NCBI GenBank assembly: GCA_900095095.1
Contig: FMBT01000293.1
Location: forward strand, 186,001 to 250,000
Reading direction: 5' to 3'
DNA length: 64,000 nt
Source of the DNA: Fragilariopsis cylindrus CCMP1102
Taxonomy: Eukaryota; Bacillariophyta; Bacillariophyceae; Bacillariales; Bacillariaceae
The notes under the pieces were generated by a model that did no database searches, was not told where the DNA came from, and saw nothing but the letters and a program-made list of their open reading frames with translations. This document shows, piece after piece, positions 44,118 through 55,267 of the stretch (position 1 is its first letter; every line of letters starts with the position of its first letter). The translations under genes were made by a program, and so were the position numbers.

Positions 44118-46025
44118 CTAAATAACCCAACAATCACCGTCACTTTCGTAGAATTCGTGATCGTCATCTTCGCATTCAATTTGATCCTCTTCGTCGTCGA
44201 TAACAATGATGGTGTCTGTGGGAGGAACTTCTAGTAGGAAAGGAACGGAAGGAGCTGCACATACAACTTCACTGTCGCCGTTCTCCTTCTGTGGTAGCAG
44301 CGAAATCATTGCAGGTACGTGACTTTGTTCTACCAGCCATTTATAATCCAGCTTTTCCAATGCACAAATTCGTTCTTTTGTCATCGAGCTCCGTTTGTTT
44401 TCTTTATAGAGCTTACAGTAATGTCTCTGGTTGATAAGCCAAATTCCAAGGTTACCAAATCCATAACCTTTCTTAGGAACATGACAGTCGCCAAATTTTT
44501 GCTTGTAATCGGCAAGCTGTGCCAATCTATCTTCAAAAGTAAAATACAATTTCCATTCAAAATCAAGCTTTTCCAACGCACTAATCCGTTCTTTCGTCAT
44601 AGGGCTCAGTTTGTTCTGTTTACAATGCTTGTATTGTGTTCTCATGTGGGAGACCCAATCAGCAAGATTTCTGTATCCTTTATAGCTCCGAGGAACATTA
44701 CAATGGCCATTATTCTTCTTATAGTCAGCAAGCTGTGCCAATCGTTCTTCAAACGTATGCTTCGGTTTGTCGGTTATCGGTGCCGTAGATACAGTCGTAT
44801 GTTGGTCAAATGCCCGTCGTCTCTTGACGATACCTCTTTTCCTTTGAAGATGATGTTACTTCGCGAATGCATCTCTTTTTAGCGGAGGAAGGACGTTCTT
44901 GTCTATTGCATAACGCTCGTTATCATCACTGTCATCGTCACGAAGGATTCTTTTCATGCGCCATGATGGTGGCGGTACTTGTTGACCACCACGGCAACAC
45001 AATACATCGACGACATTCGTATTCGTAGTAGGATGATGCTGCTGTTGACATATCGTTGCTGCTGTTGCTGCTGTTGCTGTTGCTGCTGCTGCTGCTGTTG
45101 ACGATATTGCTGCTGCTGCTGCCTGCTGTTGACGATATTGCTGCAGCTGCTGTTGCTTTTGCTCTTGCATTTCTTGGTAGTAATGTTTGTGAGTTGATTG
45201 AAATACTTGTATGATTCGATCACGAGCTGTATGAAAATCAAGAACGTAAACTTCAACTTCTTCCTTTTCTTCCGTCGAATCATCATCATCACGATAATGA
45301 TGATGACGAATTAATTTGATAAATCGACCATTATTTGTAGTAATCCTTAATATGATTTGTTCAACAGTCAAAATCTGTTCCTGTATTGTTTTAGCATGAT
45401 GAAAAAATCGTTCATAATTATGCATAATAATATCTTTCAAATTACTATTTTCGTTATAGCTTGTATTGACACCAAATAATACAACATCACGATCACGGGT
45501 ATAAGCGGTAGCACTTCCGCCGACCAAGGCTGTTGATGGTGATAACGATGGGAGAATCGAAACTGTGGAAACGTCATCTTCGACGACGACTTCTCCTACT
45601 TCTATTGTTGTGACTTTTTTCTTCTCGTAGATCATGACAGCATTGTGGTGGTGACTGATGGAAGAACACTTTACATTGTTATTTGTTGGAGGTGGTAAAC
45701 CACAAGAATAAATCGTTTTTTTAGACGATGACGCAGTAGATAGAACTACTTCGTCGTCATAGTCGTCGTCAGCAGTAGTACCTTCGTTATTGGTATTATG
45801 AAACAATTTGAGAGATGATAATGATAAAATAGCAAGAGCAGAATCAATAGCTGATGATGATAATGATAATGATGTTTTCTTCTTCATCATCACGCCAACA
45901 GCGATGGCAGATGACCTTATAAAAGATGATGTTGATTTCTTTGTTGCTGTTGATGTTGAAACCTTAGCAGTAGGAGCGGTGTTGTTATTCTTCATTCTCG
46001 CGGAAGCGGCAGTAGTATTCTTCAT
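44118..46025 (-). CDS. DUF6824-like protein joined in frame to helicase-associated (HA) domains
   Basis: ATG 46025 opens a Ser/Thr-rich N-terminus. A block at about residues 180-285 fits diatom DUF6824: DVVLFGVNTSYNENSNLKDI, then a YERFFHHAKT helix and VYVLDFHTARDRIIQVFQ. A Gln/Ala-rich stretch and a Lys/Arg-rich region follow to a TAA at 44856-44858. The same frame continues without any other stop through RKRGIVKRRRAFDQ into HA domains: FEERLAQLADYKKNNGHCNV, YRNLADWVSHMRTQYKHCKQ, then a second copy, RLAQLADYKQKFGDCHVPKK, ending in an acidic tail at 44118. HA domains are thought to bind nucleic acid or chromatin. Either one gene with a TAA replacing a Gln codon, or two adjoining genes. Confidence 0.7.
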
Positions 46026-48289: not shown

Positions 48290-49739
48290 CTACAGCCCAA
48301 AATCTTCCATCATGGACGCCATTTTAATAATGTCAACATTACCGCCGCATAATATAATGCCAACATTATTAATGCCGTGACTTTTTTTGTACTTCGTATT
48401 AAATTCCAAACTGTTTGCGACTGCAACTCCAACTCCAGCGGATGGTTCAATGACAATTTTAAGTCGTTCCCATACTAGTTTCGTAGCTTGTAGAATTTCC
48501 TTCTCGGAAACAGTAATTATCTCATCTACAAAATCTCGTACCTGTTGAGATACATAGAATCGAATTGGTACAAACGAGAGAGAATGTGACCGAGTGAGTT
48601 AGCATTTAATATATTATATGTATTATTATTGCTGCTACTGATAAAGCTTCGATCGAAAATAGAGAAATCATATTTTAGTAAACGTACAATCGGCCAGGTG
48701 TTTGTACCAAGAGTTGTTCGTAGCCCATCCGCAACGCTATCGAGTACATTCTCGGGGTTATGCTTCAAAAGTTTTCCTTCTGTGAATGAACGCTTCGCAT
48801 CGTCCAATGTTTCTGGTTCCGCTAGGATGATTTTAACTTTATCTCCTAGCATTCCACGTATACTATTATAAAAATATGTGATAAATACAAATGATATTGA
48901 ATATTACGTCGTGAGTCAGTCAGTGCGGTAAATTGATCCAGCAGAGTGATTTTGCAAAGACGATGACAGTGGCACGGCAGCGATACAATTTAGTATATAA
49001 CTTACCACATACAATTTCCAGATGCTAAACCACCACCACCAACTGGAATTATTACAGCATCCAAGTCGTCTACCCCCTTTAATAACTCCCGAACCTGTTC
49101 TATAAACTCCAGACACACAGTACCTTGCCCAGCAATAACTTTTGGATTTTCACTTGGATGAATAAATACAGCTCCAGTAGATGAAACAATCCGTTCTGCT
49201 TCTTCTTTCCGAGCTTCGTTGGTGTTGTCGACTGTTACAATAGTGGCACCAAAATCTTGGACTGCCTGTTTTTTCACAAGTGGAGCAGTATTTGGCATAA
49301 CAATAGTTGCCATAACCTTTGTGGTATTATTAGATGCTAATTTCGAAGCCAATGCTAGTGCTTGAGCATGATTTCCCGAACTGTGCGTGACAACTTGGAT
49401 CGTCGAAGTTGGTATTGTTGGTGTTTCTTCTTCTTCGTCGTCTATTTTATTATTATTATTATTATTGAAAGTCTCCAATAATGCCATCACAGCATTTAAC
49501 GCACCACGGAATTTGAACGATCCAGTTTTTTGCATTGCTTCAATTTTAAAGAAATAATTTTTCCCATCATCGTGATAAGATGTTGTCATGAGTGATCGAC
49601 ATGTCATGACAGGAGTAACATGAGCTATTCCTTTGATACGATCAGCAGCCTCCTTCACATCTTCAAAGGAGACACAATACTGTGGCGATGACGACGACGG
49701 CGACGATGATGATGTTATTGAAGATTCCATCTCTTTCAT
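48290..49739 (-). CDS. Threonine dehydratase / serine racemase family PLP enzyme
   Basis: Three exons (49006-49739, 48688-48862, 48290-48541) give an intact 386-residue protein. Fold-type II PLP motifs: KTGSFKFRGALNAV with the Schiff-base Lys, HSSGNHAQALALASKL, the PLP-phosphate loop VGGGGLASG, and IEPSAGVGVAV and ILCGGNVDI at the end. It lacks the C-terminal regulatory ACT-like domain of biosynthetic threonine deaminase, so it resembles the short serine racemase/catabolic dehydratase group. The introns are 143 nt and 146 nt; the second belongs to the introner-like family described separately. Asn and Glu runs form a surface loop insert. Activity (serine racemisation or threonine deamination) cannot be told apart from sequence alone. 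Confidence 0.88.
48542..48687 (-). mobile_element. Introner-like intron, copy A (threonine dehydratase intron 2)
   Basis: This 146-nt GT-AG intron (GTACGTTTACT...CTCAACAG) is about 94 percent identical over its last 115 nt to the intron at 54138-54301, in an unrelated gene. The bases GTACG occur both at the start of the intron and at the start of the following exon, as expected if insertion made a 5-bp target duplication. Confidence 0.8.
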
Positions 49740-49951
49740 AATTAATATTCCTCTGAAAATTTCATTCAGTTACGTTACGTCTTTTTGTCGTCGGTGTAGC
49801 TTATCCTCGTACGTCTTGATTCATTCGTCAATAATTCTGTGAATTATTGATTTAAAATTTAAATCAAGCTTATGAAATAATACCGGTAACTTAGAGATAA
49901 TGTAGAAAAGGATTTAAAAACAAAACCTACCGCGCGGTTTTATATTTATTT

Positions 49952-50172
49952 TTAACCAAATGCTAAAGAGCAAAGTTCTCGTGATCGAAGATCCATTTGC
50001 GTGCGCGTCGTGTGTGTTCTTGCAAAGCCGAGCGAACGCTCCGTAACTTTACCTACAGTACGTTCTGCATGATGCTCTTGAATTAATTTTTGGACTTGCT
50101 CTACAGTAGACACAAACACCCAGTTGACATCATCGGCATCTTGCAATTTACTTGAAGCAATCTTACAGAGCA
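49952..50172 (-). CDS. Possible 3' exon of a small unknown gene
   Basis: An open stretch in normal coding composition (DDVNWVFVSTVEQVQKLIQE, then HHAERTVGKVTERSLGF) ends at the stop at 49952. No in-frame ATG precedes it before a stop upstream, so it would need a 5' exon between here and the DDX6 gene; a CTGTAAG acceptor at about 50173 is one option. I do not recognise it. It could be a relic. Confidence 0.3.
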
Positions 50173-50546
50173 GAATAAGGTGATAGCGGATCAGTAAAGA
50201 AAAGAGTATATTTTATAACTCAATTGATTTCATCACAATTACGAAGTATTATATTATCAAGTAACAAAACAAGCCAACAAAAACTAGAAACGAACGAAGA
50301 GGTCCTACATTAACATTTCAAATTTCAACGAAGAAGGCTGTTTTAAGAATTTCGCGGACATATAGACAGACGATTTCAGTACACTTTCTACGTAAGATCG
50401 AAAGCAGTGGTATTCACAAAAAATCGTGTCAAAAACAAAAACAAAACAAAACAAAAAAGAGATTGAATACTAATAACTAATATTAACAATCAATTATAAC
50501 GAACAAGAGGTTTAAAACACCACATAAACATCACATTATTATAAAG

Positions 50547-52239
50547 ATGGCATCAATTCAAAAGAAAGCCTCACATCAGCAGAACGGAAACAGCTCCAAG
50601 AATACTGTTATTGAAGGAACTGGAACATATAAGGATGGCCTAGTTGAACCAACGAAAGATACACGATACAAGACTGAAGATGTAACAGATACGAAAGGTA
50701 GAGAATTTGAAGATTTCTTCTTAAAGAGAGAATTATTAATGGGAATTTTCGAAAAAGGTTTCGAACGACCATCACCGATCCAAGAAGAAGCAATTCCTAT
50801 CATCCTACAAGATCGTAATGTCTTGGCACGAGCCAAGAATGGTACTGGAAAGACCGCAGCTTATATCATTCCATGCCTAGAAAAAACAGACACTGAATCA
50901 AAAATTATTCAAGGTAAATAAAATATGCTCATACATACGAACGAACAAAAGTGAAAATGTACTTGCTTAATCCACATACATACATCCAAACAAACAAACA
51001 AAAAAGAAGGAATTAACTTTACAAAACTTCTTTTCTTCGCGACGAAATATATAATGACTCTGAAAAAACTCCACCGGATTTACTCACATACAGTACTAAC
51101 ATTTATCCCCCTTTCATGCTTTCTCTTTCATTTTGTACCTGTTAGTTTTGATTTTAATCCCAACACGAGAACTGGCACTCCAAACATCTGCCATCGTGAA
51201 AGAAATGGGCAAACACATGGGAATACAATGTATGGTCACTACTGGAGGAACATCACTAAAAGATGATATTATGCGTCTCTACAACACTGTGCATATTGTT
51301 GTAGCTACTCCTGGACGTATTCTTGATCTTGCATCTAAAAAAGTTGCTGATTTAAGCGACGTAAAAACAATCATCATGGATGAGGCAGATAAGCTTCTAT
51401 CGCCTGAATTCCAACCTGTTTTGGAACAAATTATTAACTTCTGTAACAAGGACCATCAAATCTGCTTGTTCAGTGCAACCTTTCCCGTCACCGTGAAGGA
51501 TTTTTGTAAACGGTTCGTACCGAACGCATACAGTATCAATCTAATGGACGAACTTACACTTCGTGGTATCACTCAATTTTATGCCTACGTTGAAGAGAGA
51601 CAAAAGGTCCATTGTCTTAACACACTATTTTCGAAACTCGAAATCAATCAAAGTATCATCTTTTGCAATTCTGTCAATCGTGTTGAATTATTGGCCAAGA
51701 AAATTACCGAACTTGGCTACTCTTGCTACTACATCCATGCCAAGATGCAACAAGCTAATCGAAATCGTGTTTTTCATGAATTTCGTAACGGTGCTACGAG
51801 ACATCTAGTAACCTCTGGTAAGTTTATTACTATTATTATTATTATTCCTCGCCCATATATCCCATACACAACTGCGACTGGATGTATGAGGCGATTCTAT
51901 ACCCTCTTTCAATATTCATACAATATCATCTTTACTAATTTCCATCCTCTACCTTTATTTGTTATTGTCTTCTTATTTAATTTTCTTTGTTTTTAAGACT
52001 TATTTACCAGAGGAATTGACATCCAATCAGTCAATGTTGTCATCAATTTTGATTTCCCGAAAAACAGTGAGACCTACCTACATAGAATTGGTCGATCGGG
52101 ACGATTCGGTCATTTGGGACTCGCTGTCAACTTAATAACGTCCGAAGATAGGAACAACCTTCGACGTGTGGAACAAGAATTGGGTACAGAAATCCGTCCC
52201 ATTCCTCCTTCCATTGATCGTAGCCTGTACGTTGGCTAA
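50547..52239 (+). CDS. DDX6: DEAD-box RNA helicase DDX6/DHH1
   Basis: Three exons (50547-50913, 51146-51817, 51998-52239) give 426 residues with no interruption. Introns: 232 nt (GTAAAT...TTAG) and 180 nt (GTAAGT...TTAAG); joined codons give [17 protein letters not shown] and [17 protein letters not shown]. Helicase motifs: [13 protein letters not shown] (Q motif), AKNGTGKT (motif I, about residues 96-103), [15 protein letters not shown] (motif II, near 200), LFSATFP (III), [13 protein letters not shown] (VI, near 374), and the typical C-terminus [13 protein letters not shown]. The close match to DHH1/Me31B/Rck indicates a role in mRNA decapping, translational repression and P-bodies. The N-terminus lacks the long Gln-rich extension of animal DDX6. 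Confidence 0.95.
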
Positions 52240-52700
52240 ACTAGCTATTTAGGGGTGGAGCGAACTATTGGTGGGGGTTGGACCTGAACGTTTTCGTTGT
52301 CAATAGTTTTGTAAAAGAAAGTTACTCGATTACGAACTATAATATGATTATGAACGGGATCATCTCCTACCAAGAACTCTCCATCCTTTTTTTTATTTCT
52401 TTTTCTTTTTGGCCTCTTTGTAATGGGATATGATACTATGGAAGATATCAATGCATAATAATACGAAATGAACAATATACATGAACAATAGGATAATACG
52501 AGAGTTGGTGTAAAAATAGAATGAAGACATTACAAGGCGCTACATTTTTTTTCTTCTTTCAATATTGTATTTTTTAGTGCATTGCAATAGCATAGGCAAT
52601 GATCTTCCACTTGTTATCTCTATTAACCGTTTGCCGATTGGATTATATTATGAAGATGTATGTATATTCATTTATCTGAGATATGACTCAGTTCTAAATT

Positions 52701-54700
52701 TTAACCAGGAGGCCAGTTGAAATCACGTCCACCCAACACGTGAACTTAGATTTCATTGTAGCAGTAAGCAATCATGTAAGCAGTATTGATAATGGAAGAT
52801 TAGCAAACGATGGTAAATGAAACGGCATCAAAAACAGAATAATTTTAAAACACACAAAAGCACCCGCATTAATGGCGTAGAGAGAGAGAGGGATCAAGGC
52901 TTGCATACACACACACACACACACGCACACACACGTACCATGTAGATGAAAAACTTCTTGGCCTGCCTTCGCACCGTCGTTAATCACAATACGTGCACCG
53001 TCTCCGAAGCCAAGAGATTCATCTTTAGCAATTTCACCCGCTGCCACCATTAGCCGTCCAAGGATCTCGTAATGCTCTGGTGTTGACTTACTAAGACGGG
53101 TAAGACCATCACGATCCTTAGGAATGACAAGAACATGTGCCGGTGCCGCTGGATTGATATCCTTAAATGCTAATATTTTGCCATCTTCTTTGACAATAGA
53201 AGCGGGGATCTCCCCAGCTAATATTTTATTAAATAGTGTATCTGGTTCGTCATCTCGAAGTCCAGCCAACCAAATTGTATCCCAACGACCCTTTTCATCC
53301 CATTTGGCAAGACCACCGCTGATCTATTGTTTGTTTATTTGTTGGTGGGTTAGGATAGTATTGGTACAATCTCATTCCAGTGATGATAATGATATGCCCA
53401 TTTACATACGACAAGATAGGTAGATGGTGAGAAAAGACACGTATGTTGAGAGCATTTTCCCAGACAGGGTTATTTGAAAAACTCTAATAGGTACACGGGA
53501 TAGTAATGAAATCCGCACATAGTACATTCCAGTATCAATATTTCAACGTACCTCTTCATAGACCTTTTGAAATGCAACATCCGTGTCGATCATACGTTGA
53601 AACCATTCCTCGATCTTTTTTGGTACGAGTTGTTGCTGCTGGTCGTCCATTAATTCTTTTTGATCAAATTTGGGAAACATAAAGGAAGCAAAGACGACAG
53701 AGGGAAATACGCTAGCATCCGCTAATGAAACTTCCTTTCCACACAAGTATGGACCTTCATCGTCCATCATATTAGAAATAATGTATAATTGTTTCGAATA
53801 TTCCTTCAGTGCATCCTTACGAGTACCAAATATACCAAATGGTGGTACAGCTCTATACAAACAAGTTTGAATGGTTGTTAGGTACATGTCGTGAAAGCGT
53901 GCGATTTCGTTACTTAATGGATTATCTGGTTGGAAGGATGGACCAAGATCAGAATACGACGACATTAGGTATCTACAAACTGTATCACTTTCTGCGATAG
54001 TAACTCCCGTAGTTTGACATTTCAATGATGGAATTTTTCCCTGGGGATTAATAGAAAGATATTCCTCCGATTTAAATCCACCAACATCCATAACACTGAT
54101 TACTGCACATTCCGATTCTGGAATTTCTTTTTTATACCTGTCGAGATACATAGGATCGAAATTGGTAAAACGAGAGAGAATGTGACCGAGTGAGTTAGCA
54201 TTTTAATATATTTATATGTATTATTATTGCTGCTACCGATAAAGCTTCGATCGAAAACAGAGAAAATTCTGTCATTTCATTGATTTTAGCATCTAACGTA
54301 CATAATGATTCGTGTCCTCGCACCATTATTTGAAACGGGAAGGTCGAACTGAAAATGGGAGAATAAAAAATGGGATACAAAACACAGGGGATGAGACCGA
54401 GTAAGTGAGTCAAGTCTTCGTATTGCTTCTAATTCACTGCTACCGATACAATAAAGTTACGATCGAAGACCGAACAATCCTATCACTACTTTGATTCCAT
54501 TCATTCTAACGTACAAGTAGATTCTTGGCTGGTGGTGGTGTAATACTGCTGCTGCTGCTACTGCTGCTCGTAGTAGTGCTATATATAGCAGTACTGGTAG
54601 GCATTGCCTTTAATCTGATACCACCTGTAAGTGCGTGTACTCGTGAAGAAGTCGTTGCTATTAAGGCACATTTCAACATCTTTAACGAATAGTTGAACAT
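52701..54700 (-). CDS. Glutathione S-transferase - HIT (HINT-like) fusion protein
   Basis: Five exons (54515-54700, 54302-54348, 53552-54137, 52939-53323, 52701-52744) total 1,248 nt, giving 415 residues with every junction in phase. The N-terminus is Ser-rich with possible organelle targeting. GST domain: FDLPVSNNGARTRIIMYKK, LSINPQGKIPSLKC, IAESDTVCRYLMS, and C-terminal helices (LCGKEVSLADASVFPSVVFA). After KWDEKGRWDTIWLAG comes a HIT domain from about residue 302: TLFNKILAGEIPASIVKED, FKDINPAAPAHVLVIPK, and the HLHVHVLGG histidine triad across the last intron. HINT proteins hydrolyse purine nucleoside phosphoramidates. Introns 1 and 2 belong to the introner-like family; intron 4 begins with a (GT)n tract at the donor. 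Confidence 0.9.
54138..54301 (-). mobile_element. Introner-like intron, copy B (GST-HIT intron 2)
   Basis: A 164-nt intron, GTACGTTAGATG...CTCGACAG. It shares TTTTCGATCGAAGCTTTATC, the GTAGCAGCAATAATAATACA tract and GCTAACTCACTCGGTCACAT with copy A, differing over the last 115 nt by about seven changes, four of them single-base indels. Confidence 0.85.
54349..54514 (-). mobile_element. Introner-like intron, copy C (GST-HIT intron 1), more diverged
   Basis: A 166-nt intron starting GTACGTTAGAATG, with TCGATCGTAACTTTAT, TATCGGTAGCAG and GACTCACTTACTCGGTC in the same order as copies A and B but otherwise diverged. It lies one 47-nt exon away from copy B. Confidence 0.65.
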
Positions 54701-55267
54701 GATAACTTATGAGTATAATGTTAGCGTCGTCGACGAAACAAGACAACTACTTATATTTTGTTTACATTGATTCATTGATTGATTGTTGTAGCGTTCTCAA
54801 TTCTCATCTCCTCATTTTTTGAGGATTTGTCGGATGTTCAATGTGTCAAGAATGATTTCAGTCGAGTGAGTCACACTTGCAAAGCGCGCGCAAAAACAAA
54901 ATACGAAAGTCGCAAATGTACTATAACGCCTATTACAGTAATAATCATTCGTTTCTGACTCTGTCTCATTCGATCTTTGTTTGTGCTCCCCCATAACTAT
55001 TTTTCTAATTTGCAAATCATTGTCTTCCTGAGAGGAATCCGATAGCAGTAGACACCGGATTACGTTTTATTTATTTCACATTTGCATACTGTGCGATATA
55101 CGTGTCGTACATAAAAGCATGATATATAAATTCACCACAAGAACTGCACTTGGATTATTTGCTACCATTGGGAATACTATACAAACTGGATTATCGTTAT
55201 CAATTGGTGGTGGCAGCGTCAGAGTAACATTGGCCTACATACTGATTCTTACTTCCGGCAATTAGTT

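Follow-up and report, generated by a model that had tools for sequence, protein, structure and literature searches.

The origin of introns is a long-standing question, and recent intron gains with a source that is still visible are few. We asked how three similar introns came to lie in two genes within 6 kb of each other in the diatom Fragilariopsis cylindrus CCMP1102. The window analysed comprises 64,000 nucleotides and is part of contig C679. The original prediction delimited these introns, hereafter A, B, and C, with borders of the form GTACGTT...CAG, and its coordinates, strand, and splice sites were correct (Table 1). Judging from the intact joined exons, A, B, and C all appear to be spliceable.

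Table 1. Features of the locus and their allelic counterparts (positions in the window unless a contig is named)
Feature	Position	Strand	Description
PALP gene, host of A	48290-49740	-	Threonine-dehydratase/serine-racemase-like; joined exons fit PF00291
Intron A	48542-48687	-	146 nt, phase 0, PALP-family gene; 5' GTACGTT, 3' CAACAG
GTACG, first copy of direct repeat	48683-48687	-	5' end of intron A
GTACG, second copy	48537-48541	-	Start of exon after intron A
GST-HIT fusion gene, host of B and C	52940-54680 (approximate)	-	Joined exons fit GST/HIT Pfam families
Intron B	54138-54301	-	164 nt, phase 2, GST-HIT gene; 5' GTACGTT, 3' CGACAG
GTA	54135-54137	-	Start of exon after B; the same 3 nt open B and the exon after A
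47-nt GST exon	54302-54348	-	Separates B from C; not detectably similar to flanking exon sequence
Intron C	54349-54514	-	166 nt, phase 0, GST-HIT gene; 5' GTACGTT, 3' TTTTCAG
A', allelic counterpart of A	C662:22091-22235		DNA search
Allelic counterpart of B	C662:27686-27849		DNA search

The claim that the host genes share nothing was borne out. The joined exons of the PALP gene matched PF00291 (residues 41-367), and those of the GST-HIT gene matched PF13417, PF13409, PF01230, and PF11969 above their cut-offs, with GST_C_2 below its own. The hosts of A (PF00291) and B (PF13417, PF01230) are not paralogous, and B and C occupy one gene. A DEAD-box helicase-like gene in the opposite orientation lies between the two hosts. 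The intron phases, as read from the joined exons, also differ (0 for A, 2 for B, and 0 for C). In distant paralogues in the same genome, the coding sequence is uninterrupted at all three intron positions. These paralogues are located on C462 for the position of A (102 of 322 residues identical, 32%) and on C652 (25% identity) and C41 (23%) for those of B and C; the C652 and C41 sequences are apparently allelic. These paralogues fit intron gain, although gain and loss are not separable at 23-32% identity.

The local alignment of A and B contained 140 identities, 5 mismatches, and 20 gap columns (score 597; 96.6% identical outside gaps) and spanned the introns from the first nucleotide to the last. 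That of B and C contained 109 identities, 32 mismatches, and 23 gap columns (score 304; 77% outside gaps) and started at the first nucleotide, with at most 14 nt of B and 11 nt of C left unaligned at the 3' end, while the alignment of A and C contained 99 identities, 32 mismatches, and 35 gap columns (score 242). Under either scoring scheme, none of 1000 dinucleotide-preserving shuffles reached the score of any pair; the shuffle maxima were 181 for B-C and 175 for A-C. The 3144 other tiles of the window (166 nt, both strands, step 40) reached at best 205 with A, 206 with B, and 191 with C. Because these scores exceeded those of all shuffles and all other window tiles, C is truly related to A and B, and is the diverged relative that had been proposed.

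The predicted near-identity of A and B was confirmed up to the 3' splice site. Strong identity starts at TTTCTCT and continues for approximately 125 nt to this site, whereas the first 20 nt or so before TTTCTCT match only weakly (25 of 2000 shuffles scored as high). B and C have a 5' part in common (7 of 2000 shuffles as high), and A lacks it (601 of 2000 for A against C). In the 100-nt flanks and the 47-nt exon, similarity never rose above that of shuffles. Therefore, the copied unit was the intron, and the duplication of an exon or segment was rejected. The window does contain a tandem duplication elsewhere, with copies of approximately 205 nt at 44337-44541 and 44553-44757 that are 71% identical and also present on C662.

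A shared part of this kind may also reflect a small RNA gene (snoRNA-like) or another conserved element inside the introns, and a few blocks of B and C are better kept than the rest. However, the similarity covers the introns including their splice sites, A, B, and C had no Rfam match even at E values up to 5, the introns folded no better than shuffles (z -0.81, 0.58, and -0.33), and the consensus fold had no positive covariation support. A small RNA gene was rejected on the Rfam, folding, and covariation results, and we regard this explanation as very improbable.

The borders read ATT/GTACGTT...CAACAG/GTACGAG for A, TAT/GTACGTT...CGACAG/GTATAAA for B, and CTT/GTACGTT...TTTCAG/TTCGACC for C. 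The boundary direct repeat is 5 nt long (GTACG) at A and 3 nt long (GTA) at B, and is absent at C. GTACG is present at both boundaries of A, as originally described; it may be read there as a target duplication that supplied the donor, but the three introns show no consistent one. In our preferred view, the donor came with the intron, because GTACGTT is common to all three and a plain duplication should differ by site. GTACGT is an ordinary donor at this locus: as read, the other two introns of the GST-HIT gene begin likewise, so that all four start with GTACGT, and intron 1 of the PALP gene starts with GTAAGT. No terminal inverted repeat was detected in A, B, or C. Their end-to-end complement scores were ordinary, and a terminal inverted repeat as good as the one observed occurred in 737, 330, and 320 of 1000 shuffles of A, B, and C, respectively.

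These findings bear on the original proposal that A, B, and C are introners, namely, the detectable members of a low-activity, non-autonomous, transposon-like intron family in which target duplication gives the donor. According to the excerpted text of an introner survey (PMC9860276), introners show similarity to both intron borders, have unrelated hosts, and form families of at least four members; many, but not all, of the families carry terminal inverted repeats, and aquatic species more often carry introners. The present introns resemble introners (PMC9860276, PMC3879977, and PMC7789003, in excerpt) in their border-to-border similarity in unrelated genes and short direct repeat at one copy; they also differ in phase and are clustered locally. 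Under a strict limit of 10 intronic bases, similarity reaches both borders for A-B only. On the other hand, the inconsistent repeat, the shared GTACGTT, which is unlike a site-specific duplication, and the lack of a detectable terminal inverted repeat argue against a spreading introner family, as does the copy number. Introners occur in tens to thousands of copies genome-wide in these excerpts, whereas we found three positions, all inside 6 kb and on two allelic contigs.

The copy number was assessed in the 67.9-Mb, 818-contig assembly. DNA searches with A, B, and C returned only these introns on C679 and the allelic contig C662. C as a DNA query returned neither A nor B, showing that the search falls short of 77% identity; sensitivity is limited below approximately 85%, and most copies as diverged as C would escape. 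Diverged distant copies may, thus, exist. Patterns made from the shared blocks pointed to the same places. The first had four exact matches (B and C) and the second had six, each against none in the reversed control, and the third had six exact matches, again the three introns on C679 and C662. When mismatches were allowed, the third pattern matched 94 times and its reversed control 70 times, and another pattern matched 127 times and its control 131 times; A, B, and C account for six of the pattern matches in each case. No excess of other copies was confirmed with these mismatch patterns, for which 24 of the 88 and 24 of the 121 remaining matches were profile-scanned. The two family patterns searched for in the viral contigs had no exact match there.

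A profile search returned nine further weak matches, the best with 14.6 bits (E 0.0064), and 13,638 other 170-nt tiles, covering approximately 214 kb of the genome, scored no better than reversed controls. One candidate, L064 on C674, matched the profile from a GTACGTTA start almost to the end of the model and beat 1000 shuffles of itself. It was rejected as a probable fourth copy, although not absolutely: its combined score of 413 was equalled in effect by reversed controls (406) among the 13,638 tiles, its genomic relatives comprise only a stretch of approximately 41 nt with a TAG repeat, and visual inspection places it downstream of the stop of a reading frame. Therefore, the genome-wide search that the original prediction called for yielded no members beyond A, B, C, and their allelic counterparts. 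The similarity was found only in these two genes, which is half of the outcome that the prediction itself had set against its claim. We consider the introner explanation to be improbable.

Other repeats and families were also noted. A 90-nt element is present on two contigs (L030:1360-1447 and L035:2079-2169; 89% identical); it was rejected as an intron because, on visual inspection, it resembles a tRNA gene. No tRNA genes were found in the window. L008 and L034 showed a weaker match of about 74%. The genome contains 27 matches to the silicon-transporter family PF03842 (best E 1.1e-226), which marks it as that of a diatom.

The second allele provides information on age and direction. C662 matches the left part of the window at 96-97% and the right part at nearly 100%. 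In the segment 46380-48280, taken as non-coding, the alleles differ at 81 of 1901 positions (4.26%). In contrast, there are no allelic differences over 6.1 kb from 48672 to 54810 (against C662; L005, L006), and 60 are listed from 54811 to approximately 60923, many of them single-base indels. Both alleles carry A, and an empty site was not seen. In the part that begins with TTTCTCT and ends at the acceptor, A and B differ at 4 of 125 aligned bases, A' and B at 7 of 128, and A and A' at 3 of 126. The A-B divergence of 3-6% is similar to the allelic divergence beside the gene (4.3%). With so little divergence, A is unlikely to be ancient, unless its likeness to B was restored by gene conversion. 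Since B and C share the 5' part that A does not have, the simplest reading of these sequences is that A is the derived copy and has been shortened.

Gene conversion could mimic the youth of A. If A, B, and C were all old and A and B had recently been homogenised by ectopic gene conversion, their divergence would say nothing about age. The high identity over the 3' 125 nt or so, next to a start of A that is only weakly like B, suits such an event. In addition, the last allelic difference to the left of the 6.1-kb stretch is inside A, so that the stretch without differences, which includes B and C, starts within this intron; this stretch may be due to gene conversion, loss of heterozygosity, or contigs sharing reads. 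However, an earlier copying event would still be required, and the strong identity ends exactly at the acceptor. We consider homogenisation of old introns to be rather unlikely.

Taken as a whole, local copying of whole introns of some kind is likely, and we consider it fairly probable that A, B, and C descend from one intron by short-range copying of this type. A was probably copied recently from B or an intron like it, located on the same strand at a distance of approximately 5.5 kb, and B and C would be an older pair within the GST-HIT gene. By simple arithmetic, an insertion landing at random in 67.9 Mb would fall within 5.6 kb of its donor with a chance of approximately 2 in 10,000. We lean towards templated copying at the DNA level, rather than reverse splicing or a transposon family, because of this proximity and the GTA(CG) matches at the junctions; the DNA-templated version is a real possibility that we place slightly below even.

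By this DNA-templated route, a B-like intron would have entered an exon of the PALP gene with its own donor, branch region, and acceptor, and, thus, A would have been spliceable at once. Templated copying would occur as a DNA break in the target was repaired. The target end ...ATTGTACG left by the break would pair with the GTACG of the donor intron, the intron would be copied through to its 3' end, and synthesis would rejoin the target at the GTA that lies 3' of the acceptor in both places. The outcome would be a GTACG repeat around A, with no need for a transposase. The weak point of this mechanism is that a 5-nt match at a single site, which possibly arose by chance, is weak evidence.

RNA-level transposition would also copy exactly an intron. 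In this process, a spliced intron reverse-splices into another transcript, which is reverse-transcribed and recombines into the gene; it has been proposed for the near-identical introns of Oikopleura and the introners of Micromonas (PMC3879977, in excerpt). However, it predicts neither a landing site 5.5 kb from the source, in a separate gene beyond a helicase-like gene, nor the GTACG and GTA matches. Moreover, the PALP gene retains intron 1 only approximately 175 nt upstream of A, although partial recombination could have spared it. RNA-level transposition appears unlikely. We tentatively propose, as a possibility clearly short of even, that introns are born by DNA-templated local copying into a neighbouring gene, steered by chance matches (GTACG at entry, GTA at exit), with neither a transposon nor reverse splicing, and probably so recently that empty-site alleles may persist in the species.

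Whole-intron copying has parallels in known systems, described here from excerpts of the sources. The seven routes of intron gain proposed in a review (PMC3443670) include break repair and intron transposition, for which 14 events are listed, in Mycosphaerella and Oikopleura. As in intron transposition, a pre-existing intron here would give the new one all of its splicing signals; however, A lies beside its source and the junction matches suggest a DNA route. Oikopleura dioica has four near-identical intron pairs among approximately 75,000 introns, each pair in one gene (PMC3879977). The present case is similar in that a whole intron was copied, near-identical introns are few per genome, and B and C share a gene, but the near-identical pair A-B is split between neighbouring genes and the same-gene pair B-C is only 77% identical. 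Intron gains in Daphnia carry short direct repeats of 4-12 bp at one intron end and the adjacent exon (PMC4202315), a range that includes the 5 bp at A. However, those gains are described as unrelated to one another in sequence (PMC3879977), whereas the insert at A is a neighbouring intron. None of the papers retrieved on introners in diatoms or stramenopiles reports introners in a diatom in its title or the opening of its abstract. The present case combines features of these systems, with a pre-existing intron as the likely source and a short repeat at the new site, and we classify it as a variant of whole-intron copying and not as an introner.

The three introns look like a small local family produced by recent local intron birth rather than a genome-wide swarm. 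Within 6 kb of a diatom genome lie an intron that is the likely source, its likely copy, and an older relative. Since A and B differ about as much as alleles do, the presence or absence of A may be tested in living strains. If the DNA-copying reading is true, introns would have a further, simple way to arise, and one that is passed over by surveys requiring at least four copies.
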